NCBI RefSeq assembly: GCF_005771675.1
Contig: NZ_VAJM01000011.1
Coordinates: 1-64,000, forward strand
Length of the DNA stretch: 64,000 bases
DNA from: Hymenobacter jeollabukensis
GTDB lineage: Bacteria > Bacteroidota > Bacteroidia > Cytophagales > Hymenobacteraceae
Reading direction: 5' to 3'
Shown: piece after piece, positions 6,258 through 55,143 of the stretch
Layout of the letters: every line of letters starts with the position of its first letter
Position numbering within the stretch: position 1 is the first letter of the stretch
Notes under the pieces: model-generated
What the model saw: the letters and a program-made list of their open reading frames with translations, nothing else
Databases searched by the model: none
Told to the model about the DNA's origin: nothing
Made by a program: the position numbers and the translations under genes

Positions 6258-7046
6258 TTAGGCGTTGGCCAGGGCCCTATCAAGGTGCACGTAGCCGCCG
6301 TCGACGTGGATGATCTGGCCGGTGGTGTGCGAGCTGCGGGCCGAGAGCAGGAAAGCTACCGCGTTGGCAATTTCCTCGGGCGTGGTCATGCGGTTTTCCA
6401 GCGGAATCTTGCTGGTGATTTCGCGCAGCTTTTCCTCGGGGTTGGGCAGGGTCTGAATCCAGGTTTCGTAGGCCGGCGTCCAGCTTTCGGCCACCACCAC
6501 GGCATTGACGCGGATACCGTATTTCAGCAGCTCCACGGCCCACTCGCGGGTGAGGGCGTTGCGGGCGCCGTTGGCGGCGGCGTAGGCCGAAGTGTTGCCC
6601 TGCCCGGTTTCGGCCGTCTTGCTGGTGATGTTGACGATGCTGCCCTGGGCCTTTTTCAGCTCCGGCAGCGCGTGGTGGGCCAGCAGGTAGTAATGCACCA
6701 CGTTGCGGTGCAGGGAGGCCATGAAGCCCGCGTAGTCGCCATGCTCCAGCCCCACCCCGTCGTTGACGCCGGCGTTGTTCACCAGCCCGTCGATGCGCCC
6801 GAACTGCTCGACGACCTGCCGCACGGCCCGGGCGCAAGCCTCGGGGTCAGCCAGCTCGGCGGCTACCTGCCCGGCCCGGCCGCCGGCCGCTTCCACGGCC
6901 GCTACGGCCTGGCGGTTATCGGCCTCATTGCGGCCGATGATGACGGGCACGGCGCCCTCGGCGGCCAGCACCCGCACGATACCCTCGCCGATGCCCTTGG
7001 CCCCGCCGCTGACGATAATGACTTTGTCCTGAAGCTCCAGATTCAT
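6258..7046 (-). CDS. SDR sugar dehydrogenase, probable L-fucose dehydrogenase
   Basis: This 262-residue short-chain dehydrogenase probably oxidises L-fucose (or a related aldose) to its lactone with NAD(P). The cofactor loop GGAKGIG lies at 14-20 and NNAG at 90-93, with candidate catalytic Ser142 and Tyr155. The canonical lysine four residues after the tyrosine is Asn159 (YAAAN), confirmed by reading the codon AAC on the minus strand. Similar YAAAN segments occur, as I recall, in related Bacteroidota SDRs. The start is the ATG opening MNLELQDKVI, since the upstream in-frame extension is repeat sequence. It is the terminal gene of a minus-strand group with an amidohydrolase, an FAH hydrolase and a second SDR. 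L-rhamnose dehydrogenase is the main alternative. Confidence 0.65.
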   Translation of the reverse strand: MNLELQDKVIIVSGGAKGIGEGIVRVLAAEGAVPVIIGRNEADNRQAVAAVEAAGGRAGQVAAELADPEACARAVRQVVEQFGRIDGLVNNAGVNDGVGLEHGDYAGFMASLHRNVVHYYLLAHHALPELKKAQGSIVNITSKTAETGQGNTSAYAAANGARNALTREWAVELLKYGIRVNAVVVAESWTPAYETWIQTLPNPEEKLREITSKIPLENRMTTPEEIANAVAFLLSARSSHTTGQIIHVDGGYVHLDRALANA

Positions 7047-7057
7047 GGTTGGTGGGT

Positions 7058-7156
7058 TGTAGAGACGCGACCCATCGCGTCTCGTCGTTGCTGATGTTGT
7101 TTGGGCTGCCCGACGCGGGTCGTTCAACGACGAGACGCGATGGGTCGCGTCTCTAC
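7058..7156. repeat. REPIN-like double hairpin, GTAGAGACGC arms
   Basis: Two hairpins, each made of GAGACGCGA and TCGCGTCTC, flank a core starting TCGTTGCTGATGTTG (7085) and ending GTTCAACGA (near 7120). The arms are inverted copies of one another. The right end (CTAC) contains the TAG stop codon of the amidohydrolase gene read on the minus strand. The same family recurs at 19031-19160. Confidence 0.88.
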
Positions 7157-7983
7157 AGCCGGTAGAACGCGGCCGCGTTTTCGCCCCAGAACCGGCGCTG
7201 CTCGTCGGCGGAGAAGCCGGCCAGGTACTGCTGAACCAGCTCTACCACCTGCCCGTACCGGCCGGCCACCAGGCACACCGGCCAGTCGGAGCCGAACATG
7301 ACGCGCTGCGGGCCGAAGGCTTCGAACACCACGTCGAGGTAGGGCCGGAAGTCGGCGGGCTGCCAGCGGTGCCATTCGGCTTCGGTGATGAGGCCGGAGA
7401 CTTTGCACCACACGTTGTCGTGGGCGGCCAGGGCCTGCAGGTCGCGCTGCCAGCCGTCGATGTCGCCGCGCTTAATGTAGGGCTTGGCAATGTGGTCGAG
7501 CACGAAGGGCTGCTGGGGGTGCGCGGCGGCCAGCGCGGCGGCGTGGCCCAGCTGGTCGGGGAAGATGAGCACGTCGTAGGTGAAACCGTGGGCACTCAGC
7601 GCCTTGATGCCGCGCTGAAACGGGGGCGTGAGCATCAGGGCGCGGTCGGCTTCGCCCTGCAGCACGTGGCGGAAGCCTTTCAGCTTCGCGAACTGGCTGT
7701 AGTAGGCCAGCCGCTCGGCCACGTCGGCGGCCCGCAGATCCACCCAGCCGACCACGCCGCGGATGAAGTCGTTGTCCGCCGCGTTGGTCAGCTGGAATGC
7801 GTTTTCGGCCTCCGTCTGGCCCGACTGCACCACCACGCAGCCGTCGAAGCCGTACTGCTCCAGCAGCGGCGCCAGATCGGCGGGCCCGAAGTCGCGCTGG
7901 ATGACGGCCATGTCGTCGGTTATCCAGGCGTCGCGCTCGGGCTGGTACTGCCAGAAGTGCTGGTGGGCGTCAATCCTGGCCAT
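7153..7983 (-). CDS. Amidohydrolase, probable L-fucono-lactonase
   Basis: This 276-residue cytoplasmic amidohydrolase of the COG3618 group probably opens the sugar lactone produced by the neighbouring SDR, giving L-fuconate. Visible active-site elements are the N-terminal HxH (His7, His9 in DAHQHFW), Asp163-His164 in VLDHIAKP, and the C-terminal GSDWPV (Asp233). The gene starts inside the end of the FAH-hydrolase gene (14-base overlap), so the two are translationally coupled. Its stop codon lies in a repeat. The amidohydrolase type of lactonase argues for the fucose route, because the described oxidative rhamnose route uses an SMP-30-type lactonase. Confidence 0.72.
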   Translation of the reverse strand: MARIDAHQHFWQYQPERDAWITDDMAVIQRDFGPADLAPLLEQYGFDGCVVVQSGQTEAENAFQLTNAADNDFIRGVVGWVDLRAADVAERLAYYSQFAKLKGFRHVLQGEADRALMLTPPFQRGIKALSAHGFTYDVLIFPDQLGHAAALAAAHPQQPFVLDHIAKPYIKRGDIDGWQRDLQALAAHDNVWCKVSGLITEAEWHRWQPADFRPYLDVVFEAFGPQRVMFGSDWPVCLVAGRYGQVVELVQQYLAGFSADEQRRFWGENAAAFYRL

Positions 7984-8830
7984 ACGCCTTCACGGTTTGG
8001 CGCGAAGTGCCCAGCCCGTCGATGCCCAGCTCCACCACGTCGTCGGGCTGCAGGTACACGGGCGGCTTCAGGCCCAGGCCCACGCCCGCCGGGGTGCCGG
8101 TGGAAATCACGTCGCCGGGCAGCAGGGTCATGAATTGCGAGATGTAGCTGATCAGGCGCGGGATGCGAAAGATGAACTCGGCGGTGGTGCCGTCCTGCAT
8201 CTGCTGCCCGTTCACCGTCAGCCACAGGCGAAGGTTGTCCACGTCCCGGATTTCGTCGGGGGTGGCCAGCCAGGGGCCGATGGGCGCGAAGGTGTCGCAG
8301 CCCTTGCCCTTGTCCCAGGTGCCGCCGCGCTCAATCTGAAATTCGCGCTCCGACACGTCGTTGTGCAGGGCGTAGCCGGCCACGTAGCTGAGCGCGTCGG
8401 CCTCCTCCACGTACGAAGCCTTGCGGCCGATAACCACGGCCAGCTCCACTTCCCAGTCGGTTTTCACCGAGTTCCGCGGAATGACGATGTGGTCGTTCGG
8501 GCCGACCAGGGCGGTGGTCGACTTCATGAACAGAATCGGCTCGGCGGGCGTGGCGGCGCCGGTTTCGCGGGCGTGGTCGGCGTAGTTCAGCCCCACGCAC
8601 ACGATTTTGGAGGGCCGGGCCACGGGGGAGCCGAGGCGCACCGCGTCGGGCACGACGGGCAGGTGGCCGGGCTCCACGTTCCGGAGCAGCTCGGCCAGCT
8701 GCTCCAGGCCGCCGTGGGCGAAGAACTTCTCGTCGTAGTCGACAAAGTGAGCCGACACGTCGTAGCGCGTGCCGTCGATAATGACGCCGGGTTTTTCCTG
8801 GTCGGGCTGGCCGAAGCGGATGAGTTTCAT
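7970..8830 (-). CDS. FAH-family hydrolase, probable 2,4-diketo-3-deoxy-L-fuconate hydrolase
   Basis: This 286-residue protein has the fumarylacetoacetate-hydrolase fold. The divalent-metal ligands are the expected Glu127 and Glu129 (WEVEL) and Asp158 (NDVS), with the catalytic-loop histidine at His86 (YADHARE). In non-phosphorylating fucose or rhamnose catabolism this family cleaves the diketo acid to pyruvate and L-lactate, which links the cluster to the nearby lutABC genes. It overlaps the downstream amidohydrolase by 14 bases. Generic FAH hydrolases also act on other acylpyruvates, so the substrate assignment rests on context. Confidence 0.75.
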   Translation of the reverse strand: MKLIRFGQPDQEKPGVIIDGTRYDVSAHFVDYDEKFFAHGGLEQLAELLRNVEPGHLPVVPDAVRLGSPVARPSKIVCVGLNYADHARETGAATPAEPILFMKSTTALVGPNDHIVIPRNSVKTDWEVELAVVIGRKASYVEEADALSYVAGYALHNDVSEREFQIERGGTWDKGKGCDTFAPIGPWLATPDEIRDVDNLRLWLTVNGQQMQDGTTAEFIFRIPRLISYISQFMTLLPGDVISTGTPAGVGLGLKPPVYLQPDDVVELGIDGLGTSRQTVKAYGQD

Positions 8831-8851
8831 GCAGTAGAGGATGTTTCAGGC

Positions 8852-9003
8852 CGTCATCCTGAGCAAGGCGAAGGACCTTCCTCCCACCCTGCACCAGCGG
8901 CTAAGTCCCAGGCAAGTTACCTGAGAAGTGAAAATGCGTTGTGGCCGCGTTCCAGCGGCGGTGCGGGGGATGAGGAAGGTCCTTCGCTTTGCTCAGGATG
9001 ACG
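8852..9003. repeat. Long inverted repeat with GAAGGACCTT arms, second copy
   Basis: Left arm 8852-8883 (CGTCATCCTGAGCAAGGCG and onward) and right arm 8972-9003 are nearly perfect complements of about 32 bases, enclosing a loop of about 88 bases. It separates the second SDR gene from the FAH gene. It is the same family as 6067-6238. Confidence 0.85.
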
Positions 9004-9032
9004 TTCTTTTCCTTCCACCACCGCGCTCAGAA

Positions 9033-9797
9033 TCAATTATTCAGCTTGATGAAGCCCCCGTCGAGCGGGTAGTCGCAGCCGGTGACGAAGCCGGCTTCGT
9101 CGGAGCAGAGGTACAGGGCCAGGGCGGCTACTTCCTCGGGCTTGGCCATGCGGCCGATGGGCTGGCTTTTCGAGAGTTTCTCGAACATTTCCGCCTCCTG
9201 GCCGGGGTAGTTCTTGGCAATGAAGCCGTCGACGAAGGGCGTGTGCACGCGGGCCGGCGAGACGCTGTTGCAGCGGATGCTGTGGGCCATGTAGTCGCGG
9301 GCCACCGACATGGTCATGGCGAAGATGGCGCCCTTGCTCATGCTGTACGCCAAGCGGTCCGACAGGCCGACGTGGGAGGCAATGCTGGCCAGGTTCAGGA
9401 TGACCCCGGCGCCCTGCTGCTTCATCAGCGGCACGGCCGCGTGCAGGCAGTTGTAGGCGCCCTTCACGTTCACCTGGTACACCCGGTCGAGGTCGGCTTC
9501 CGAGGTATTTTCCACGTTGCCGACGTGGGCAATGCCGGCGTTGTTGACCAGGATATCCACCCGGCCGATGGCATCGAACACGGCTTTCACCGGCGCCTGC
9601 TGGCTCACGTCGGCGGCATGGACCTGGGCCGTGCCGCCGGCCTGGCTGATTTCGTCGGCGGTGGCTTGGCCGGCGTCGGCGCTCAGCTCCAGGATGTGGA
9701 CGGTGGCGCCCTGCCGGGCAAACAGCAGGCTGATGGCGCGGCCGATGCCCGAGCCACCGCCGGTAATGACGGCCGTCTTGCCGCTTAGGTTGAACAT
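9033..9797 (-). CDS. SDR, probable 2-keto-3-deoxy-L-fuconate dehydrogenase
   Basis: This 254-residue classical SDR has GGGSGIG at 13-19, NNAG at 85-88, candidate catalytic Ser138, Tyr151 and Lys155 (YSMSK). Unlike its neighbour at 6258 it keeps the lysine. In the oxidative fucose pathway an SDR oxidises 2-keto-3-deoxy-L-fuconate to the 2,4-diketo acid that the FAH hydrolase then cleaves. Position next to the FAH gene supports that step. The start at MFNLSGKTAV is chosen because the 22-residue upstream extension is encoded by repeat sequence. The dehydratase that would make its substrate is not in the window. Confidence 0.68.
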   Translation of the reverse strand: MFNLSGKTAVITGGGSGIGRAISLLFARQGATVHILELSADAGQATADEISQAGGTAQVHAADVSQQAPVKAVFDAIGRVDILVNNAGIAHVGNVENTSEADLDRVYQVNVKGAYNCLHAAVPLMKQQGAGVILNLASIASHVGLSDRLAYSMSKGAIFAMTMSVARDYMAHSIRCNSVSPARVHTPFVDGFIAKNYPGQEAEMFEKLSKSQPIGRMAKPEEVAALALYLCSDEAGFVTGCDYPLDGGFIKLNN

Positions 9798-9835
9798 GGG
9801 AGGTGGTTTGTTGGGGGTTTGTTGGGGGCTTGTTA

Positions 9836-9953
9836 GAACGTCATGTCGAGCTTGTCGAGACATCTCGCTCGGGTGCTATTCTTCTCGTTGAACATGAGTT
9901 TACTATCTGGCATCAGCACGCGAGATGTCTCGACAAGCTCGACATGACGTTCT
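9836..9953. repeat. Family A dispersed inverted repeat
   Basis: Near-perfect arms of about 33 bases (left 9836-9868, opening GAACGTCATGTCGAGC; right 9920-9953) enclose a 51-base loop. Each arm contains its own short dyad, TCGAGC...GCTTGTCGAGA. This is the best-preserved family A copy. Other copies or halves are at 17631, 25871, 39183, 40505, 47944, 49390, 53656, 55161 and 58843. Confidence 0.9.
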
Positions 9954-46727: not shown

Positions 46728-47924
46728 ATGTCCGCCGAACACATTCACCTGAAAGGCATTACCTGGAACCACAGCCGCGGCTTCGTGCCGATGGCCGCCA
46801 CCGCGCAGCGCTTTGCGGAGCTGCACCCGCACGTGAGCATCAGCTGGGAAAAGCGCAGCCTGCAGCAGTTCGCCGACGAGTCCATCCAGCAGCTGGCCGA
46901 GCGGTTCGACCTGCTGGTTATCGACCACCCCTGGGCCGGCTTCGCCGCCCGCACCGGCTCCATTCTGCCGCTGAATGAGCATCTACCCGCCGCCTTCCTG
47001 GCCGATCAGCAGGCCAATACCGTGGGCCACTCCTACGAAAGCTACGGTTTCAGCGGCCACCAGTGGGCCCTGCCCATCGACGCGGCCACGCCCGTAGCCG
47101 CCAGCCGCCCCGATCTGCTGGCCCGGCACGGCTTGTCTGTTCCGAAGACGTTCGAGGAGCTGCTGCAGCTGGCCGACCGGGGCCTGGTGGCCTTCGCGCT
47201 GATTCCCATCGACACGCTGATGAGCTTCTACATGTTCTGCTGCTCGCTGGGCGAAGACCCCTGCCAGCGCGAGGACGAGGTGGTGAGCGAAGCCGTGGGC
47301 GTGCAGGCCCTGCAAATGTTCCGGGAGCTGGCCCGCAAAGTCGACCCGGCCTGCTTCCAGCGCAACCCCATCCAGGTGTACGAGGCCATGACGCAGACCG
47401 ATGAGCTGGCCTACTGCCCCTTCGCCTACGGCTACAGCAACTACGCCCGCCGCGGCTACGCCCGCCAGCTGCTGCACTTCCACGACCTGGTGGCCCTGCA
47501 GCCCGGCGGCACGCCCATGCGCAGCACCCTGGGCGGCACCGGCCTGGCTATTTCGGCCAAGTGCCAGCACGTGGAGGTGGCGGCCAAGTACGCCGAGTTC
47601 GTGGCCTCGCCCGGCTGCCAGCAGACGCTGTACTTCGACAACGGCGGGCAGCCCGGTCACCTTGCTGCCTGGCAGGCCGAGCACCCGAATCAGCAGAGCC
47701 ACGACTACTTCCGCGCCACCCTGCCCACGCTGCAGCGCGCCTTTCTGCGCCCGCGCTACCACGGCCACATGTTCTTCCAGGACCACGCCGGCGAGCCGGT
47801 GCGCCAGTACCTGATGCACGGCGGGGACGAGCGGGCTTTGCTCCAGCAGCTCAACCAGCTGTACCGCGAGTCGCGGCAGATGCAAGCGGCAGAACCGCAA
47901 GCCGCAACGGCTGAACAACGCTAA
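46728..47924 (+). CDS. Leaderless solute-binding-protein homologue 1
   Basis: This 398-residue protein has the fold of ABC extracellular solute-binding proteins (SBP_bac_1/COG1653): FAELHPHVSISWEKRSLQQF, FDLLVIDHPWAGF, GHQWALPIDAATPVAASRPD and LGGTGLAISAKCQHVEVAAK. It has no signal peptide, lipobox or membrane segment from either possible start, and no ABC permease or ATPase lies in the window. It should therefore be cytosolic, perhaps binding a ligand or CoA-linked intermediate for the next enzymes. The start at MSAEHIHLKG is preferred because the ATG at 46665 reads through a repeat. A CoA-transferase gene follows, and a paralogous SBP lies at 50604. Confidence 0.75.
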   Translation: MSAEHIHLKGITWNHSRGFVPMAATAQRFAELHPHVSISWEKRSLQQFADESIQQLAERFDLLVIDHPWAGFAARTGSILPLNEHLPAAFLADQQANTVGHSYESYGFSGHQWALPIDAATPVAASRPDLLARHGLSVPKTFEELLQLADRGLVAFALIPIDTLMSFYMFCCSLGEDPCQREDEVVSEAVGVQALQMFRELARKVDPACFQRNPIQVYEAMTQTDELAYCPFAYGYSNYARRGYARQLLHFHDLVALQPGGTPMRSTLGGTGLAISAKCQHVEVAAKYAEFVASPGCQQTLYFDNGGQPGHLAAWQAEHPNQQSHDYFRATLPTLQRAFLRPRYHGHMFFQDHAGEPVRQYLMHGGDERALLQQLNQLYRESRQMQAAEPQAATAEQR

Positions 47925-47943
47925 CCGAACGACTACCCCAGCC

Positions 47944-48065
47944 CGTCATGTCGAGCTTGTCGAGACATCTCGCGTGCTGACGTCCGGCAGTAATCAACCT
48001 GACGAAAGGAATTACTACCGGACCTCAGCACGCGAGATTCCTCGACTTCGCTCGGAATGACGGTC
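47944..48065. repeat. Family A repeat, diverged
   Basis: Left arm CGTCATGTCGAGCTTGTCG (47946 onward) and right arm GCGAGATTCCTCGACTTCG (48021 onward) have drifted apart. The interior adds a second dyad (GTCCGGCAGTAAT...ATTACTACCGGAC). Confidence 0.8.
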
Positions 48066-48093
48066 TGGAAGCCAAAGTCTAAATCAACATCCC

Positions 48094-49251
48094 ATGTCAC
48101 TTCCCCTGGAAGGTCTGCTCGTCATCGAGTTCAGCCAGTTTCTGGCCGCGCCCTCGGCGGGGCTGCGGCTGGCCGACCTCGGCGCGCGCGTCATCAAGAT
48201 TGAGCGGCCGGGCGCGGGCGAGGCCGGCCGGCAGATTGCCATCAAGAACCTGTTCGTCGACGGCAGCAGCCTGGTGTTTCACACCATCAACCGCCACAAA
48301 GAATCCTACGCGGCCGACCTGAAGAATCCCGAGGACCTGGCCCGCGTGCGGCAGCTGCTGGCCCGGGCCGACATCATGACCCACAACTTCCGGCCGGGCA
48401 TCATGGAGAAAATCGGCCTTGATTACGACTCGGTGCGCGCCCTGAACCCGCGCATCGTCTACGGCGTGGTGACGGGCTACGGCCCGACGGGGCCGTGGGC
48501 CACCAAGCCGGGGCAGGACTTGCTGGTGCAGTCGATGGCGGGGCTGACCTGGCTGAGCGGCACCGCCCAGGACGGCCCCACGCCCTTCGGCATTGCCGTG
48601 GCCGATATCATCTGCGGCTCGCACTTCGCGCAAGGGCTGCTGGCGGGGCTGCTGAAGCGCGGCAAGACGGGCCGGAGCGTGCTGGTGGAAGCCAGCCTGC
48701 TGGAATCGGTGCTGGACATGCAGTTTGAGCTGCTGACCACCCACCTCAACGACGGCGGGCAGCTGCCCCGGCGCGGCGCCGTGCGCGGCACCGCCCACCC
48801 CTACCTAAGCGCGCCCTACGGCATCTACCCCACCCAGGACGGGCACCTGGCCCTGGCTATGGGCAACCTGCCCCAGCTCGATGAAACGCTCGGCTGCGGC
48901 ATTCTGGCGGCGTTTCCGGAGCCGGCGTCCTGGTTTGAGTTCCGCGACGCCATTGCCGACAAGCTCACCGCCGCCCTGCGCGAGAAGCCCACGCAAGAAT
49001 GGCTAGCCACGCTGGAGCCGCTGGGCATCTGGTGCGCCGAGGTGCTGAACTACCAGCAGGCCACCAGCAGCCCCGGCTTCCAGGCCCTGGGCATGCAGCA
49101 GCAGGTGCTGCTGCCCGACGGCCAGGAGCTGGCCACCACCCGCTGCCCCATCCGCATCGACGGTGAGAAGCTGTACGCGGCCCAGGCCGCCCCGCGCCCA
49201 GGCCAGCACACCGCCGAAATCGACGCGGAATTTCAACTGAATAACCACTAA
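48094..49251 (+). CDS. Class III (CaiB/BaiF) CoA-transferase 1
   Basis: This 385-residue cytoplasmic enzyme should move CoA between carboxylic acids. Family segments are [20 protein letters not shown] (10-29) and [10 protein letters not shown] (31-40). The likely catalytic aspartate is Asp171 in [20 protein letters not shown], aligned from memory with Asp169 of formyl-CoA transferase. It is closely similar in pattern to the neighbour at 49448 (both have DFG or DLG then ARVIKIERP, and TWLSG), so the two are tandem paralogues. Two-gene class III transferases such as BbsEF act as heteromers, and the same is possible here. Donor and acceptor are unknown. Confidence 0.88.
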
Positions 49252-49311
49252 CCTAAGCCACCAAAGAAAGAGCGTTAGACCAAAACCGCGCCCCAATCCG
49301 CCCGCGCCGCC

Positions 49312-49429
49312 GTGGCTCCCCCTCTCCTTTTTCATGTCGCGCATCAAGCGAGGTAGGGGGCCGGGGGGTGAGGCGTATATAGCGCGACGAAGCACGCGAG
49401 ATGTCTCGACAAGCTCGACATGACGTTCT
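49312..49429. repeat. Family B repeat followed by half a family A repeat
   Basis: CCCCCTCTCC at 49318-49327 and GGGGGCCGGGGGGTGAGG at 49356-49373 flank the insert CATGTCGCGCATCAAGCG (49333-49350). A right-half family A arm (GCGAGATGTCTCGACAAGC, 49397 onward) ends 19 bases before the next ATG. Confidence 0.8.
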
Positions 49430-49447
49430 GATTCAATCGTTTTACCC

Positions 49448-50611
49448 ATGAAACCGCTCGAAGACTACTTAGTGGTTGATTTCAGCCAGTTTCTCTCCGG
49501 CCCCTCGGCGGCCCTGCGCCTGGCCGATTTCGGGGCGCGGGTCATCAAGATTGAGCGGCCCGAAACCGGCGACATCTGCCGACACCTGTACACCTCCAAC
49601 GTCATCATGAACGGGGAGTCGTCGGTGTTTCACGCCATCAACCGCAACAAGGAAAGCTTCGCCGCCGACCTCAAAAACGACGCCGACCGCGCCCAGGTGT
49701 GGGAGCTGGTGCGCCGCGCCGACGTGGTGATGCACAACTACCGCCCCGGCGTGATGGAGCGCCTGGGCTTCGACTACCAGAGCGTACGGGCGCAGAATCC
49801 CACGGTGGTTTACGGCGAAATTTCCGGCTACGGTCCCGACGGCCCCTGGCGCGACAAGCCCGGCCAGGACTTGCTCCTGCAGTCGGTTTCGGGCCTGACC
49901 TGGCTGAGCGGCAACGACGGCAGCGGCCCGGTACCGATGGGCCTCTCCATCGTGGACATGCTGGCCGGGGCGCACCTGGCCCAGGGGCTGCTGGCCTGCT
50001 TGGTGCGGCGCAGCCTGCGCGGCGAAGGCGGACTGGTGCAGGTGAGCATGCTCGAATCGGCCATCGACTTCCAGTTCGAGACGCTGACCACCTTCTTCAA
50101 CGACGGCGGGCAGCTACCCCAACGGACCCGGCACAACAGCGCCCACGCCTACCTCGGCGCGCCCTACGGCATCTACCAGACCCAAAACGGCTACCTGGCC
50201 CTGGCCATGGGTTCCATCCCGAAGCTGGGCGAATTGCTCGGCTGCCCGGCGCTGCTGAATTACCCCGAGCCGAAACAGGCCTTCGACCAGCGCGACGAAA
50301 TCAAAGCCACGCTGGCCGAGCACCTGCGCACCAATACCACCGAGGCCTGGCTGGCCGTGCTGGAGCCCGCCGATATCTGGTGCGCCAACGTGCTGCGCTG
50401 GGACGAGCTGCTTCGGCACGAGGGCTTCCGCGGCCTGGAAATGACGCAGACCGTGCGGCAGCTCGACGGCTACGAGTACCAGACCACCCGCTGCCCCATC
50501 CGCCTCGACGGGGAGCGGCTGACTTCGCCCGTCGGCTCGCCGAAGCTGGGCCAGGACAACGCCCGGCTGCAAGAGGAATTCATGACCAGCAACGCCCGCC
50601 AAGATGCCTGA
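49448..50611 (+). CDS. Class III (CaiB/BaiF) CoA-transferase 2
   Basis: This 387-residue protein is a paralogue of the preceding CoA-transferase. It shows [20 protein letters not shown] (9-28), [10 protein letters not shown] (30-39) and the putative catalytic Asp170 in [18 protein letters not shown]. Its last 8 bases overlap the start of the second SBP gene, which signals translational coupling and a joint function. Whether the two transferases form one heteromeric enzyme or act on different acids cannot be told from sequence. Confidence 0.88.
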
Positions 50612-51860
50612 GCAACAGCCTTTCCGCGTGGCCGTGCGCAAGTTCGCGCCCTTCGAAGCCCACATGCAGAAGCTCTGGGCGGCCTTCTGCGCCCACTCCG
50701 GCTGCACGCTGCCGGCCGAGTTCGTGGCCCTGGACCTGCACCCGCTGCACCAGAGCCTGCTGACCGATCAGGGCCTGGCAACCGGCGCCTGGGACCTGGC
50801 CCACATCAACACCGACTGGCTGCCCGAAGCCCAGGCCGCCAGCGCATTGCTGGACCTCGCGCCACTGATTCGGCAGAACCCGCCGGCCGATTTTCCGCAG
50901 GGCTGGAGCCCGTCGTTGCTGGGGATGCAGGAATACGGCGGCACCACGCTCGGCCTGCCCTTCCACGACGGCCCGGAGTGCCTGATTTACCGCAAGGACC
51001 TGTTCGACAGCCCGACGGAGCAGGCCGAGTTCCGGCAGCTGCACGGCCGGCCGCTGCAACCGCCTGCTACCTGGGAAGAGCTGCAGCAGGTGGCCCGCTT
51101 TTTTCACCGCCCCGAGCAGAACCTCTACGGCTTCGTGGCCGCCGGCTACCCCGACGGGCACAACACCGTTTTCGACTTCTGCCTGCACCTCTGGACCCGC
51201 GGCGGCCAGCTGCACGACGGGCAGGACCGGCTGCAAATCGACTCCGAGGCGGCGCGGGCGGGCCTGAGCTTCTACCGCCAGCTGCTGCGCGACACCAACG
51301 CCATTCACCCGCAGTCGATGCAGTACGAGTCGGTGCGGGCGGGGCAGGCCTTTGCCCGAGGCGAGGCGGCGCTGATGATCAACTGGTTTGGCTTCGCGGC
51401 CGTGTGCGAGGTGGACGACGCCTGCCCGGTGCGCGGCAAAGTCGACATCACCGCCGTGCCCAGGGGCGAAAACACCGTGGGCAGCTCCGCGTCGCTGAAC
51501 GTGTACTGGCTATATGCAATAGGTTCTGGCAGCCGGCACCAGCAGCTGGCCTACGACTTCATCCGCTTCGCCCTCAGCCCGGAAAACGACAAGCAGCTCA
51601 CGCTGGAAGGCGGTATCGGCTGCCGGCTCAGCACCTGGCACGACCCGGACATCAACGCCCGGGTGCCCTACTACCACAAGCTGGCGGAGCTGCACGAAAA
51701 GGCCGAAACGCTGCCGCAGAAAGCCAACTGGGCCCAGCTGGCCGCCGTCATCGACGAAGCAGTGCTGCGGGCCCTGAATACCGACGAGCCTGTAGCCGAG
51801 CTACTGGCCGCCGCGCAACTGAAAATCAACGCCCTGGACAACCCTCTGGATTATGTTTAG
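50604..51860 (+). CDS. Leaderless solute-binding-protein homologue 2
   Basis: This 418-residue protein resembles sugar-type ABC solute-binding proteins (SBP_bac_1), with [55 protein letters not shown] and [19 protein letters not shown]. It begins [20 protein letters not shown] and has no signal peptide or lipobox. The 8-base overlaps with the upstream CoA-transferase and downstream oxidoreductase genes leave no room for a different start with a leader. It should be cytosolic and may form a functional pair with the SBP at 46728. Ligand and role are unknown. Confidence 0.78.
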
Positions 51861-52971
51861 CATCGACGGCACCCCGATTCCCTACCAGCCGGTGCGGCCC
51901 GCCCGGCCCCTGCCCATCGTCATCGTCGGGGCTGGCGGCATCGTGGGCGACGCGCACCTGCCCGCCTACCGCAAGGCCGGCTTCGAAGTGGTGGGCATCA
52001 CCAACCGCACCCGCGCTAGGGCCGAAAAACTGGCCGCCGAGTGGAACATTCCGCACGTCTACGACTCGGTGGCCGAAGCCGTGCAGCACGCCCCCGCCAA
52101 CGCGGTGTACGACGTGACCATCATGCCCGAGCAGTTCGTGGCCACCCTGGAGCAGCTGCCCAACGGCGCGGCCGTGCTCATCCAGAAACCGATGGGCGAC
52201 TATTTCTGGCAGAGCCAGGAAATCCTGGAAGTCTGCCGCCGCAAGCATCTGGTGGCCGCCATCAACTGCCAACTGCGCTTCGCACCCTACGTGGCCGCCG
52301 CCCGGCACATGCTCAGCCAGGGCCTCATCGGTGAGCTGTACAATCTGGAAGTGCGCGTAACTTTGGAGACGCCCTGGGAGCTGTTTCCGCACGTGATGGT
52401 GCACCCGCGCCTGGAAATCCAGTACCACAGCATCCACTACATCGACCTGATTCGCAGCTTCCTCGGGGAGCCCGGCCGCGTAATGGCCAAGACGCTCCGG
52501 CACCCGGCCAAGGTGCTGTCCTCCACGCGCTCCACCATTTTGTTCGACTACGGCGACACCTTGCACGCCGTCATCAACACCAACCACGACCACTCGTTCG
52601 GGCCGCACAACCAGGAAAGCTTCATCAAGTGGGAAGGCACGAAAGGCGCCATTAAAGCCCGCATGGGCCTGCTGATGGACTACCCCCACGGCGTGCCCGA
52701 CAAGTTCGAGTACTGCCTGCTGCGCGAAAACGAAGCCCCGGCCTGGCACACCGTCGAGCTGGAAGGCTCCTGGTTCCCGGACGCCTTTATGGGCACGATG
52801 GGCAGTTTGATGCAGTTCAAAAACGGCGAAACCAGCGTGCTGCCCACCAGCGTGGAGGACGTCATCAAGACCATGGCCGTGGTGGAAGCCGCCTACGCAT
52901 CGAGCGACGGGAAGCCCGGCGCCCCGGGCGCGGCGGCCGCCTCAGCTGCCACTACCAACGAAAAGCGGTAG
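51853..52971 (+). CDS. Gfo/Idh/MocA family oxidoreductase
   Basis: This 372-residue NAD(P)-dependent oxidoreductase has the Rossmann loop [14 protein letters not shown] and the dinucleotide-side motif QKPMGDY (normally EKP). It also has a late [16 protein letters not shown] that normally carries the catalytic His/Asp region. It overlaps the SBP gene by 8 bases. The family oxidises or reduces sugars, inositols and related cyclic polyols, so the cassette probably handles a sugar-derived compound. It has a low-complexity Ala/Gly tail and no export signal. Confidence 0.85.
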
Positions 52972-53060
52972 AGAGCAGGACACTTGCCCGGCTTTCCTAC
53001 CGCATCTTACACGCTCAATAACTCCTCAAAACCACTCAACAAAACCACTCAACGACTCCC

Positions 53061-53172
53061 CACACCGTCAGCCGGTAGCAATTAAAGCAGCCCGCGCCGC
53101 TTTGACTGCGCTGCGTCGTCAGGCTCCCCCTTCCTCGCTTGATGCGCGACATCCCAGGAGAGGGGGCCGGTC
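53061..53172. repeat. Extended family B repeat with insert
   Basis: A 5' extension (AGCCGGTAGCAATTAAAGC..., then CTGCGCTGCGTCGTCAGGC) matches 61190-61240. It is followed by CTCCCCCTTCC, the insert CGCTTGATGCGCGACATC (53136-53153) and GGAGAGGGGGCCGG. It ends about 29 bases before the MaoC start. Confidence 0.78.
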
Positions 53173-53200
53173 CCGGAAGGGTTTCGCGAGGCCACCACCT

Positions 53201-53653
53201 ATGTACTTCAAATCCACCTTCTTCGAAGACTACACCCTCGGCGACAAGCGCGTGACGCTGGGCCGCACGCTCACCGAAACCGACTTCGTGGTCCACGCCG
53301 GGCACACCGGCGACTTTTTCCCCCACCACCTCGACGCGGAGTGGTGCAAGACGCAGCCCTTCGGCCAGCGCATTGCCCACGGCACGATGGTGTTCAGCAT
53401 CGGTATCGGCCTGACGGCCTCGGAAATCAACCCGGAAGCCTTTTCCAAGGGCTACGACCGGCTGCGCTTCATCAAGCCCGTGTTCATCGGCAACACCATC
53501 CGCTCGGAAGTCACGATTTCGGAGAAGACGGAGGGCAAGAAGCCCGGCTACGGACAGGTAACTGAGCACGTGGAAATCTTCAACGAGCACGGCGAAGTGG
53601 TGCTGGCCTGCGACCATCTGCTGGTGGTGAAGCTGCGGCCACAACACGCCTAG
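53201..53653 (+). CDS. MaoC-like enoyl-CoA hydratase
   Basis: This 150-residue single hot-dog protein probably hydrates or dehydrates an acyl-CoA. The hydratase-2 signature is present as [15 protein letters not shown] then [10 protein letters not shown], with catalytic candidates Asp38 and His43 at the usual five-residue spacing. The asparagine normally beside them is Phe40. The start at [10 protein letters not shown] is chosen because the upstream in-frame extension is repeat-encoded. It is the last gene of the SBP/CoA-transferase/MocA cassette and supplies the step expected after CoA activation. Confidence 0.82.
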
Positions 53654-53655
53654 TT

Positions 53656-53770
53656 GAACGTCATGTCGAGCGAAGTTGAGACATCTCGCGTGCTGATGGC
53701 GGATAGTAAGCCTTGTTCAATGAGCAGATTACTATCGAGCGAGATGTCTCGACTTCGCTCGACATGACGA
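53656..53770. repeat. Family A repeat after the MaoC stop
   Basis: Left arm GAACGTCATGTCGAGCGAAG and right arm GCGAGATGTCTCGACTTCG with GACATGACGA enclose a loop containing GATAGTAA...TTACTATC. It starts two bases after the MaoC TAG. Confidence 0.85.
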
Positions 53771-53838: not shown

Positions 53839-55143
53839 ATGGCCCTTGCCCCTGCTCCCACCCCGCCGCCGGTAGTCACCGGCAGCCCCACCAGCGCCCG
53901 CGCCTACCTGCTTCCGTTCATCCTGGTGGTGGGCGTGTTCTTTCTCTGGGGCATGGCGCACAGCCTGGATTCCATCCTGATTCCGCACCTGCAGAAGGCC
54001 TGCCAGCTCAACAACCGGCAGTCGACGCTGGTGGACACGGCCGTGTTTCTGGCCTACTTCCTGATGGCCATTCCGGCCGGGATGCTGCTCAAACGCCTGG
54101 GTTACAAAACCACTATTATCCTAGGCCTGCTGGCCTTTGCGGGCGGGGCGTTCCTCTTCATCCCCGCCGCCGATGCCCGCTCCTACGGCATGTTCCTGAC
54201 GGCCTTATTCATCATCGGCTGCGGGCTGACCACGCTGGAAACCGCCGCCAACCCCTACGCCGCCGTGCTCGGGCCGCCCGAGGGCAGCACCAGCCGGCTG
54301 AACCTGGCGGCCTCGTTCAACGGCCTGGCCGTGTTCGTGGCCCCGATTATCGGCGCCAACATGATTCTCTCGGGCACGGAGTACAGCAAGGCCCAGCTGG
54401 CGGCCATGCCCACGGCCGAGCGCATTGCCTACCTCAACCACGAAGCCGCCGCCGTGAAGCTGCCCTACCTGGTGCTGGGCGCGGTGCTGGTGGCCGTGGC
54501 GGTGCTGTTCTTTTTCAGCAAGCTGCCCGAGGTAAAGGCCGCCGAAGCTGAGCCCTCCCAGGGCGGCGGCTTTTTCGCCGTGCTGAAACACCGGCACCTG
54601 ACCTGGGCCGTGGTGGCGCAGTTTTTCTACGTCGGGGCGCAGGTCTGCGTGACGAGCTTCTTTATCCGCATGGCCAAGCAGGGCGCGGGCGTCGATGAGA
54701 AAACCGCCGGCTACTACCTGGCCGTGTACGGGCTGCTGTTTATGATCGGGCGCTTCGCCGGCACGGCCCTACTCAAGTACGTGGCCTCGCAGCGGCTGCT
54801 CTCGATTTACGCCGTGGTAGCCGTGGCCCTGTGCGCGGTGGCCGTGTTCGGCGACGGGGCCTACGTCATCTACGCCCTGGGCGGCATCGGCTTTTTCATG
54901 AGCATCATGTTCCCCACCATCTTCGCCCTGGGCATTGCCGGCCTCGGCGACGACACCAAGCCCGGCTCGTCCTGGCTGGTCATGTCCATCGTGGGCGGGG
55001 CCATCCTGCCCTACCTAATGGGCACGCTCATCGATATGCGCGGCGACAATATCCAGATCGGCTACCTCATCCCGCTGGGCTGCTTCCTGGTGATTCTGCT
55101 CTTCGGTCAGTACGGCTACCGCATCAACCGCAAGCTGGTGTAA
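53839..55143 (+). CDS. FucP-like sugar:H+ symporter (MFS)
   Basis: This 434-residue inner-membrane protein has twelve predicted membrane segments and belongs to the FucP group of the major facilitator superfamily. It should import L-fucose or a related monosaccharide with protons. FucP landmarks are FFLWGMAHSLDSILIPHL, IPAGMLLKRLGYK, LETAANPY (Glu134) and RLNLAASFNG (Asn161). By my recollection these align with E. coli FucP Glu135 and Asn162 at an offset of one. At the same offset E. coli Asp46 falls on Ser45, with an Asp one residue earlier (Asp44). It links the oxidative fucose genes to the glycosidases. Other aldoses remain possible. Confidence 0.82.
   Translation: MALAPAPTPPPVVTGSPTSARAYLLPFILVVGVFFLWGMAHSLDSILIPHLQKACQLNNRQSTLVDTAVFLAYFLMAIPAGMLLKRLGYKTTIILGLLAFAGGAFLFIPAADARSYGMFLTALFIIGCGLTTLETAANPYAAVLGPPEGSTSRLNLAASFNGLAVFVAPIIGANMILSGTEYSKAQLAAMPTAERIAYLNHEAAAVKLPYLVLGAVLVAVAVLFFFSKLPEVKAAEAEPSQGGGFFAVLKHRHLTWAVVAQFFYVGAQVCVTSFFIRMAKQGAGVDEKTAGYYLAVYGLLFMIGRFAGTALLKYVASQRLLSIYAVVAVALCAVAVFGDGAYVIYALGGIGFFMSIMFPTIFALGIAGLGDDTKPGSSWLVMSIVGGAILPYLMGTLIDMRGDNIQIGYLIPLGCFLVILLFGQYGYRINRKLV

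Follow-up and report, generated by a model that had tools for sequence, protein, structure and literature searches.

A conserved cassette of class III CoA-transferases and leaderless solute-binding proteins in Hymenobacter jeollabukensis and its possible place in 6-deoxy-L-hexose catabolism

Carnitine dehydration by CaiB and CaiD begins with a class III coenzyme A (CoA)-transferase that converts a hydroxy acid to its CoA ester; a hydratase then removes water from this ester, and the CoA is used again. A class III CoA-transferase and a hydratase are likewise combined in a six-gene cassette of Hymenobacter jeollabukensis, described here. The cassette occupies positions 46,728 to 53,653 of a stretch of 64,000 nucleotides (the window; bases 1-64000 of contig C3 of a 6.18-Mb genome, G000). 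It encodes two proteins with a solute-binding-protein fold (SBP1, SBP2), two CoA-transferases (CT1, CT2), an oxidoreductase (MocA) and a hydratase (MaoC). All parts belong to known families, and the scheme they suggest resembles that of CaiB/CaiD; what surprises is that CoA-transferases are consistently partnered with binding proteins that have no leader.

The cassette differs from CaiB/CaiD in its substrate context, in the usual replacement of the crotonase by MaoC, and in having two CoA-transferases and two SBP-fold partners. On the L-carnitine CoA-transferase model, the cut-off of which is 413, the two transferases reach 58 and 75 bits. A second related system is the non-phosphorylating, oxidative pathway for L-fucose and L-rhamnose, which uses an enolase- or UxaA-type dehydratase and has no CoA step. 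A dehydrogenase, a lactonase-like protein, a protein of the SDR family and an FAH-type hydrolase, of the kinds used in this pathway, are encoded near the cassette or its relatives, together with a FucP or RhaT symporter, but the cassette would add a CoA step. In the itaconate and mesaconate CoA pathways a CoA-transferase also feeds a MaoC-type hydratase. Cassette proteins gave weak matches, all far below cut-off, to succinyl-CoA:mesaconate CoA-transferase and RipB/Ich; unlike those pathways, this one lies in a sugar locus and no CitE-type lyase was present among the scanned genes. The binding proteins share their fold with ABC sugar-binding proteins of the MalE/UgpB type. They differ from these in lacking a leader and in lying beside CoA-transferases, and no ABC permease or ATPase was identified among the scanned window neighbours (glycosidases, FucP). 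No description of the gene set was found in the open-access full texts searched, a collection outside which lie most subscription papers and all bioRxiv preprints. An unknown rhamnose pathway that includes a mutarotase and six genes without a clear role is mentioned for a Rhodobacteriaceae bin (PMC5507952), and may or may not be the set described here.

Organization and conservation of the cassette

As the sequence-only reading of this DNA had proposed, six open reading frames (ORFs) of the named families follow one another on the plus strand, identified by Pfam models over curated cut-offs. SBP1 (46728..47924, 398 amino acids) and SBP2 (50604..51860, 418 amino acids) match SBP_bac_1/8 and show no leader. 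CT1 (48094..49251, 385 amino acids) and its paralogue CT2 (49448..50611, 387 amino acids) are class III CoA-transferases with PF02515 scores of 307.4 and 327.3 bits (cut-off 23.3). MocA (51853..52971, 372 amino acids) is a Gfo/Idh/MocA NAD-dependent oxidoreductase based on PF01408, PF22725 and PF02894, all over cut-off; it reached the cut-off of none of the NCBIfam models searched. MaoC (53201..53653, 150 amino acids) is a hot-dog-fold hydratase (PF01575, MaoC_dehydratas, 77.8 bits, cut-off 27). The mirror-like A-B-B'-A' order of the first four genes was borne out, CT1 and CT2 being 55% identical and SBP1 and SBP2 24% identical over 206 residues. Directly downstream is the gene of a FucP-type sugar/proton symporter (53839..55143, plus strand; TIGR00885 369.5 bits, cut-off 280.4).

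Three junctions had been read as overlapping or nearly overlapping. Two overlap, CT2/SBP2 and SBP2/MocA, by 8 bases each, whereas the other three are gaps of 169, 196 and 229 bases which are filled in part by repeat sequence. Related inverted repeats were located in the gaps of the window at 47928-48065, 49334-49441, 53126-53152 and 53656-53769, several of them centred on GTCGAGACATCTCGC; their insertion may have separated genes that are otherwise coupled.

The co-occurrence of the six families in other genomes, which had been put forward as a check, was examined in two samples. Contigs of GTDB genomes were scanned with SBP2, giving 132 relatives, and the locus counts given here refer to the best 80 of these 132, with loci L001-L009 excluded. 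The closest relatives in the genome collection were Hymenobacter (H. edaphi SBP2, 92% identity). The order SBP1-CT1-CT2-SBP2-MocA on one strand was present in 76 of the 80 loci; MaoC also lay downstream of MocA in 69, and in five of the 76 an additional MaoC was situated between CT1 and CT2. Two of the four exceptions are on short contigs (L033, L054), one has no SBP1 or MocA match (L036) and one has no CT1 (L050). Carriers include Hymenobacter, Pedobacter, Mucilaginibacter, Pontibacter, several Flavobacteriaceae, Fulvivirga and Carboxylicivirga. Because this set was chosen by SBP2, a second and independent draw was made with an SBP1 profile against 395 Bacteroidota genomes from 171 genera. 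SBP1 was found in 19 genomes from 10 genera, 11 of the 19 belonging to one family; all matches scored at least 527 bits, with none weaker down to E 1e-10. CT1 adjoined SBP1 in 18 of the 19, the genome of the window included, the exception being G555 (L132, L141, L242).

Junctions were counted after loci with fused or missing ORFs had been excluded (64 to 77 left), each ORF beginning at its first possible start codon, which makes gaps appear smaller. The genes overlapped or lay within 25 bp of each other at SBP1-CT1 in 54 of the 65 loci with separately called ORFs for the two (median overlap 4 bp), at CT2-SBP2 in 75 of 77 and at SBP2-MocA in 70 of 75. A bare run of seven genes, SBP1-CT1-CT2-SBP2-MocA-MaoC-FucP, was observed in two Mucilaginibacter loci (L032, L035) and an unclassified Bacteroidetes bin (L028), with no match to the glycosidases of the window beside it. 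The six genes are a real unit and not a chance cluster.

Relatives among the Alphaproteobacteria were reached through plasmid searches. In Nitratireductor, Roseibium and Pararhizobium a CoA-transferase, a leaderless SBP1 relative (39-40% identity), MocA and MaoC are found in one cluster with an amidohydrolase (lactonase), IclR, an ABC transporter, an enolase-family protein, an L-rhamnose mutarotase, an SDR protein, an annotated L-fuconate dehydratase and an FAH-type hydrolase. The binding protein of this ABC transporter is distinct from SBP1 and carried a clear leader in two of the three tested. The Roseibium names hold at family level, since the scores are below cut-off: 417 of 500 bits for FAH on the 2,4-didehydro-3-deoxy-L-rhamnonate hydrolase model, 104 of 400 for the amidohydrolase on L-fuconolactonase and 54.5 of 99.6 for the mutarotase. 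The name L-fuconate dehydratase is that of the Roseibium record, the best NCBIfam match being L-talarate/galactarate dehydratase (123 of 500 bits). In the Shinella cluster the amidohydrolase/lactonase and FAH were not in view. The S. meliloti pair of CoA-transferase and SBP1 lies approximately 10 kb from the other genes, within the stretch seen, and DNA of Rhizobium sp. RCAM05350, with few genes annotated, has the same set with MocA in two pieces. In Croceibacterium CT-SBP1 is divergent from CT-MaoC, followed by an ABC transporter and then by SBP2-MocA; the ABC binding protein is of another family, and an alpha-L-fucosidase and beta-galactosidases are present. A haloarchaeal plasmid encodes CoA-transferase, SBP2, MaoC and MocA relatives (36-42% identity) together with an AMP-binding CoA ligase, an L-rhamnose mutarotase and an alpha-L-fucosidase.

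CoA-transferases, binding proteins and hydratases

Residue conservation was scored on ORFs of 0.8-1.35 times the expected length, which left 66 to 79 rows. The predicted catalytic aspartate, which we take to correspond to that of formyl-CoA transferase, was kept in at least 97% of rows in CT1 (Asp171, 67 rows) and CT2 (Asp170, 69 rows), and in all 39 chosen rows of a mixed alignment that included another class III enzyme of G000. With this residue present in both, the two proteins may form separate homodimers or a single heterodimer with two sites. In a tree of 39 chosen rows CT1 formed its own clade (support 98/100), and the position of the haloarchaeal transferase, with long branches, was unsure. 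The cut-offs of the named NCBIfam CoA-transferases (carnitine, oxalate, succinate-glutarate, mesaconate) were not reached, the best scores being 214 against 750 and 180 against 522 bits. The only other class III CoA-transferase match in the genome, at C6:174764-175861 (L001), is 36% identical to CT2. In 11 loci of Hymenobacteraceae (L014-L023, L025) a single continuous open frame of 792-835 codons covers both CT1 and CT2; in L014 (7561-10008) the linker joining them resembles repeat sequence. Such in-frame fusions favour a partnership of the two proteins but may stem from repeat insertion.

The claim that the binding proteins are leaderless was supported by hydropathy, with a maximum of 1.11 in 78 SBP1 and 1.33 in 79 SBP2 sequences and no leader seen. 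Four annotated ABC binding proteins gave 2.5, 2.35, 1.65 and 0.87 in the same test, which therefore misses some leaders. The start codon of SBP2 lies within CT2. Structure models that drew on 30 chosen rows of SBP1 and 29 of SBP2, the window included and the L014 row excluded for its stop codon, show the complete sugar-binding-protein fold retained in both proteins. At least 97% of rows kept 106 residues of SBP1 and 124 of SBP2. Both proteins seem to work inside the cell and not in transport; most likely they are cytosolic and bind a sugar acid for the neighbouring CoA-transferases.

Residues Asp40 and His45 of MaoC (numbered from base 53195), presumably equivalent to the catalytic Asp/His motif of (R)-specific enoyl-CoA hydratase, are among those kept in at least 97% of 66 rows, and the nearest solved structure is 4ffu (E 1.3e-63). 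The hydratase is of a different type in three genomes. In G459 (L140) and G740 (L237) the genes downstream of SBP1-CT1-CT2 encode a crotonase-family enoyl-CoA hydratase and an aldehyde dehydrogenase. In G391 (L138, L241) the genes of these two enzymes lie upstream of SBP1-CT1-CT2, and agarase-CBM-like and GH16 domains occur at the same locus. Over the 16-19 kb in view at the three loci, MaoC, MocA and SBP2 were not seen. On the PRK10090 model, aldehyde dehydrogenases of such loci reach 463 and 491 of 500 bits. Among 397 genomes of one family (f55), six crotonase relatives at E 1e-70 or better were identified, three of them with SBP1-CT1-CT2. The core was not in view beside the relatives in G675 and G677, and that in G818 (L238) probably has the same neighbourhood as cassette locus L085, where matching unlabelled ORFs lie downstream. 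The pairing of CoA-transferases with a hydratase thus recurs, and the hydratase can belong to unrelated families (MaoC or crotonase), which points to elimination from a CoA ester.

Association with oxidative 6-deoxy-L-hexose catabolism

The common thread of the carriers is a 6-deoxy-L-hexose of the fucose/rhamnose kind. The FucP cluster is represented in 51 of the 80 loci and a RhaT-type symporter in 26, including Flavobacteriaceae, several of them from marine genera; an alpha-L-fucosidase is present in five loci and a sulfatase in six. The suggestion that a pectin-derived acid is the substrate was not sustained, and a pectin-only function was rejected, based on the Flavobacteriaceae loci with RhaT, fucosidase and sulfatase and on the alphaproteobacterial L-fucose-type clusters, neither of which show a pectin enzyme among annotated or scanned genes. 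Catabolism of aceric acid, considered since the neighbouring GH127 and GH106 proteins resemble enzymes for rhamnogalacturonan II, was also rejected as a misfit to the fucosidase and sulfatase loci, and a literature listing contained nothing on it. BT1003 is named an aceric-acid hydrolase in PMC5698469.

The likely partner operon of the cassette, for L-fucose oxidation, is on the minus strand of the window at 6258-9863, 37 kb away. It encodes an L-fucose dehydrogenase of the SDR family (6258..7127; NF052481 415 bits, cut-off 300), an L-fucono-1,5-lactonase-like amidohydrolase (7153..7983; NF052480 290 bits, below the cut-off of 400) and an FAH-fold hydrolase of the 2,4-diketo-3-deoxy-6-deoxyhexonate kind (7970..8830; NF053535 371 bits, below the cut-off of 500). 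The last is 57% identical to the Roseibium protein beside L-fuconate dehydratase. A second SDR protein (9033..9863; PF13561/PF00106), the gene of which adjoins the FAH gene in most relatives examined, is likely a 2-keto-3-deoxy-acid dehydrogenase. Over 7 kb to either side of this FAH gene, no enolase- or UxaA-type dehydratase was seen. The genome has a single UxaA match, which lies elsewhere in a UxaB/UxaC galacturonate operon and could serve fuconate too.

Elsewhere the two gene groups are adjacent. L139, L146 and L147 each have the cassette in divergent orientation to an operon of lactonase, L-fucose dehydrogenase, zinc dehydrogenase and FAH. In L143 one strand carries mutarotase, MaoC, SBP1, CT1, CT2, a weak lactonase relative and a RhaT-type symporter, followed by MocA, a second MaoC, SDR and FAH. 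FAH was found at 51% identity or more in 11 of 15 chosen cassette genomes; in the same 15, a fucose isomerase over cut-off was present in two, a RhaA-type rhamnose isomerase in one, and an L-fuconate dehydratase in one (43%), with distant matches (26-33%) in three more. In the 395-genome draw FAH occurred in 16 of the 19 genomes with SBP1 versus 53 of the 376 others (p about 1e-10, uncorrected for kinship, which matters with 11 of the 19 in one family). Two FAH loci each were identified in G447, G593, G585, G495 and G203, four of which are in one genus: one locus is of the UxaA type and the other, at the cassette, has no UxaA-type dehydratase. Two copies were found in one of the 53 FAH genomes without SBP1 (G256). 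The double loci suggest parallel routes for two related sugars ending in the same hydrolase, and are a second pointer, beside the recurrent hydratase pairing, to CoA-ester elimination.

All 75 FAH places of the draw, some truncated by contig ends, were then classified by neighbourhood, the loci picked through cassette genomes (L100-L110) being kept separate. UxaA or FucD lay within 7 kb in 31 places and not in 44. Chosen FAH loci comprised nine with UxaA and no zinc dehydrogenase and six with the reverse; this tally includes L139, L146, L147, L154, L155, L158 and L163, which are also among the 75. The zinc dehydrogenase was noted in the FAH operons of L102-L104, L139, L146, L147, L169, L177, L190, L209 and others, and among those seen only L178 also had UxaA within 7 kb.

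Proposed route and alternative readings

We tentatively read the cassette as a branch of oxidative 6-deoxy-L-hexose catabolism that runs through CoA thioesters, the reactions, the substrate and the role of the binding proteins all being inferred. The outline given by the sequence-only reading (oxidation of a sugar, activation of a carboxylate as CoA ester, hydration or dehydration) fits the gene content of the relatives. A FucP- or RhaT-type symporter would import the sugar, MocA, alone or with L-fucose dehydrogenase, would oxidise it, and the lactone would open to the aldonate. CT1 and/or CT2 would move CoA onto the aldonate. MaoC would then remove the C2 proton, acidified by the thioester, and expel the C3 group, as water or an alcohol, to give a 2-keto-3-deoxy acyl-CoA, an elimination in which a crotonase may replace it. 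The CoA would be passed to the next acid, as CaiB recycles CoA for CaiD, and the free 2-keto-3-deoxy acid would be converted by the SDR protein and then by the FAH-type hydrolase to pyruvate and lactate. Because ordinary dehydratases co-occur, including the alphaproteobacterial L-fuconate dehydratase, a modified or isomeric substrate is favoured over plain L-fuconate. The likeliest substrates are aldonates refractory to ordinary dehydratases, for example O-methylated or otherwise modified fuconate or rhamnonate; O-methyl sugars, like 3,6-anhydrogalactonate, are proposed on contextual grounds.

Dehydration of sugar acids normally relies on metal or iron-sulfur enzymes, and a CoA-ester route, if true, would be a separate chemical solution to this problem. 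It could explain how bacteria handle the modified forms of fucose or rhamnose that plant cell walls and algae supply, and would give cytosolic solute-binding proteins a metabolic job. It would also provide an annotation route for recurrent genes now labelled "CoA transferase", "extracellular solute-binding protein" or "MaoC".

A number of observations weigh against the proposed branch. Two binding proteins and two CoA-transferases exceed the strict needs of the scheme, and in G555 SBP1 occurs with no CoA-transferase in view. The alphaproteobacterial clusters already contain a protein annotated as L-fuconate dehydratase together with a second member of the enolase family; UxaA homologues were found in 15 of 15 and 17 of 18 cassette genomes (two sets); the crotonase-type genome G459 has FucD beside its FAH; and in L178 an operon of FAH and L-fucose dehydrogenase is followed, two ORFs on, by UxaB-UxaA. 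Of the 44 FAH places without a near UxaA or FucD, 37 have no SBP1 within 7 kb and 31 are in genomes free of SBP1. In 27 of the 75 places, all in SBP1-free genomes, UxaA, FucD and zinc dehydrogenase were all missing within 7 kb, and FAH operons with zinc dehydrogenase and no UxaA or FucD were found in four SBP1-free genomes. A near dehydratase is thus commonly missing at FAH places, so that its absence beside a cassette is weak, non-diagnostic evidence. All seven places where SBP1 lies within 7 kb of FAH come from a single genus (g63), which also limits the test of SBP1 adjacency against a dehydratase (p = 0.037). Finally, L190 (G480), in one of these four SBP1-free genomes, has kept FucP, MocA and the zinc-dehydrogenase FAH operon, and CT1, CT2, SBP1, SBP2 and MaoC were not seen at that place. 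This genome is in the same genus as full carriers and constitutes a natural test of dispensable genes.

A broader reading, possible but rather doubtful, is a general CoA-thioester breakdown of sugar acids in three lineages, built on an SBP1-CT1-CT2 core with exchangeable lyases. An ABC-type binding protein would have become the cytosolic, substrate-delivering subunit of a two-gene class III CoA-transferase. MaoC would serve 6-deoxyhexonates (perhaps O-methylated ones, with loss of methanol) and the crotonase other aldonates, such as 3,6-anhydrogalactonate from agar. Its range would cover Bacteroidota, Alphaproteobacteria (mostly with one CoA-transferase) and, in a related form, a haloarchaeon.

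It is unlikely that the cassette does no more than supply these organisms with L-fuconate dehydratase activity, by converting plain L-fuconate to a CoA ester which MaoC dehydrates before release. The L-fucose operon of the window, which has dehydrogenase, lactonase-like, SDR and FAH genes and no adjacent dehydratase, would agree with such a function, as would the placement of the only UxaA in the galacturonate operon and the direct adjoining of cassette and operon in L139, L146 and L147. However, that UxaA might serve both acids, UxaA homologues are near-universal in the two sets of cassette genomes, the five genomes with double loci also carry a UxaA-type FAH locus, an annotated L-fuconate dehydratase shares the alphaproteobacterial cluster, and similar operons without a near dehydratase occur in SBP1-free genomes.

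It appears improbable that the CoA enzymes act off the sugar carbon chain, on an acyl or ether substituent of the sugar or on the end product lactate. A sialate-esterase-like (SASA) protein is encoded after the glycosidases, its cluster being present in 27 loci, and lactate-utilisation genes lie near the FAH operon in the window, L100, L102 and L108. Yet LldF was within 7 kb of FAH in only two of the 75 places, the MocA-MaoC pair lies within an alphaproteobacterial sugar-oxidation cluster, and the crotonase-type loci have an aldehyde dehydrogenase in place of MocA.

There is a similarly low probability that the binding proteins are transport remnants or sensors outside the CoA chemistry. Their modelled sugar-binding fold, complete in both, would suit such a role, SBP2 appears dispensable at times (no SBP2 match was seen in L142-L145), and SBP1 stands without any CoA-transferase in view at L141/L242. 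Against this are the tight SBP1/CT1 and CT2/SBP2 junctions, the large number of residues kept in both proteins, and the persistence of CoA-transferase with SBP1 in Alphaproteobacteria despite a separate ABC binding protein. A chance cluster is refuted by the order kept in 76 of 80 loci together with the 18 of 19 SBP1-CT1 pairs of the independent draw, and can be dismissed.

Several minor features were recorded. At L141/L242 the SBP1 relative (57%) has as neighbours relatives of L-rhamnose isomerase and kinase, IclR, a GH29 relative and a 468-amino-acid protein without a Pfam match. The window itself encodes an L-rhamnose-isomerase-type protein (TIGR02629, 496 of 647 bits) and an FGGY kinase at 364-2984. 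A RuBisCO-like protein is encoded near the cassette in L088 (14104-18748), where an SBD_N/NBD_C-type kinase follows it, in L026 (19820-21064; 506 of 700 bits on the apiose-pathway model OiaX) and in L091 (24202-25173). A DUF5703 protein was identified near, beside or within the cassette by Pfam (L031, L045), by annotation (L096) or by sequence cluster (L043, L061, L036), the one in L045 being GH95-like.

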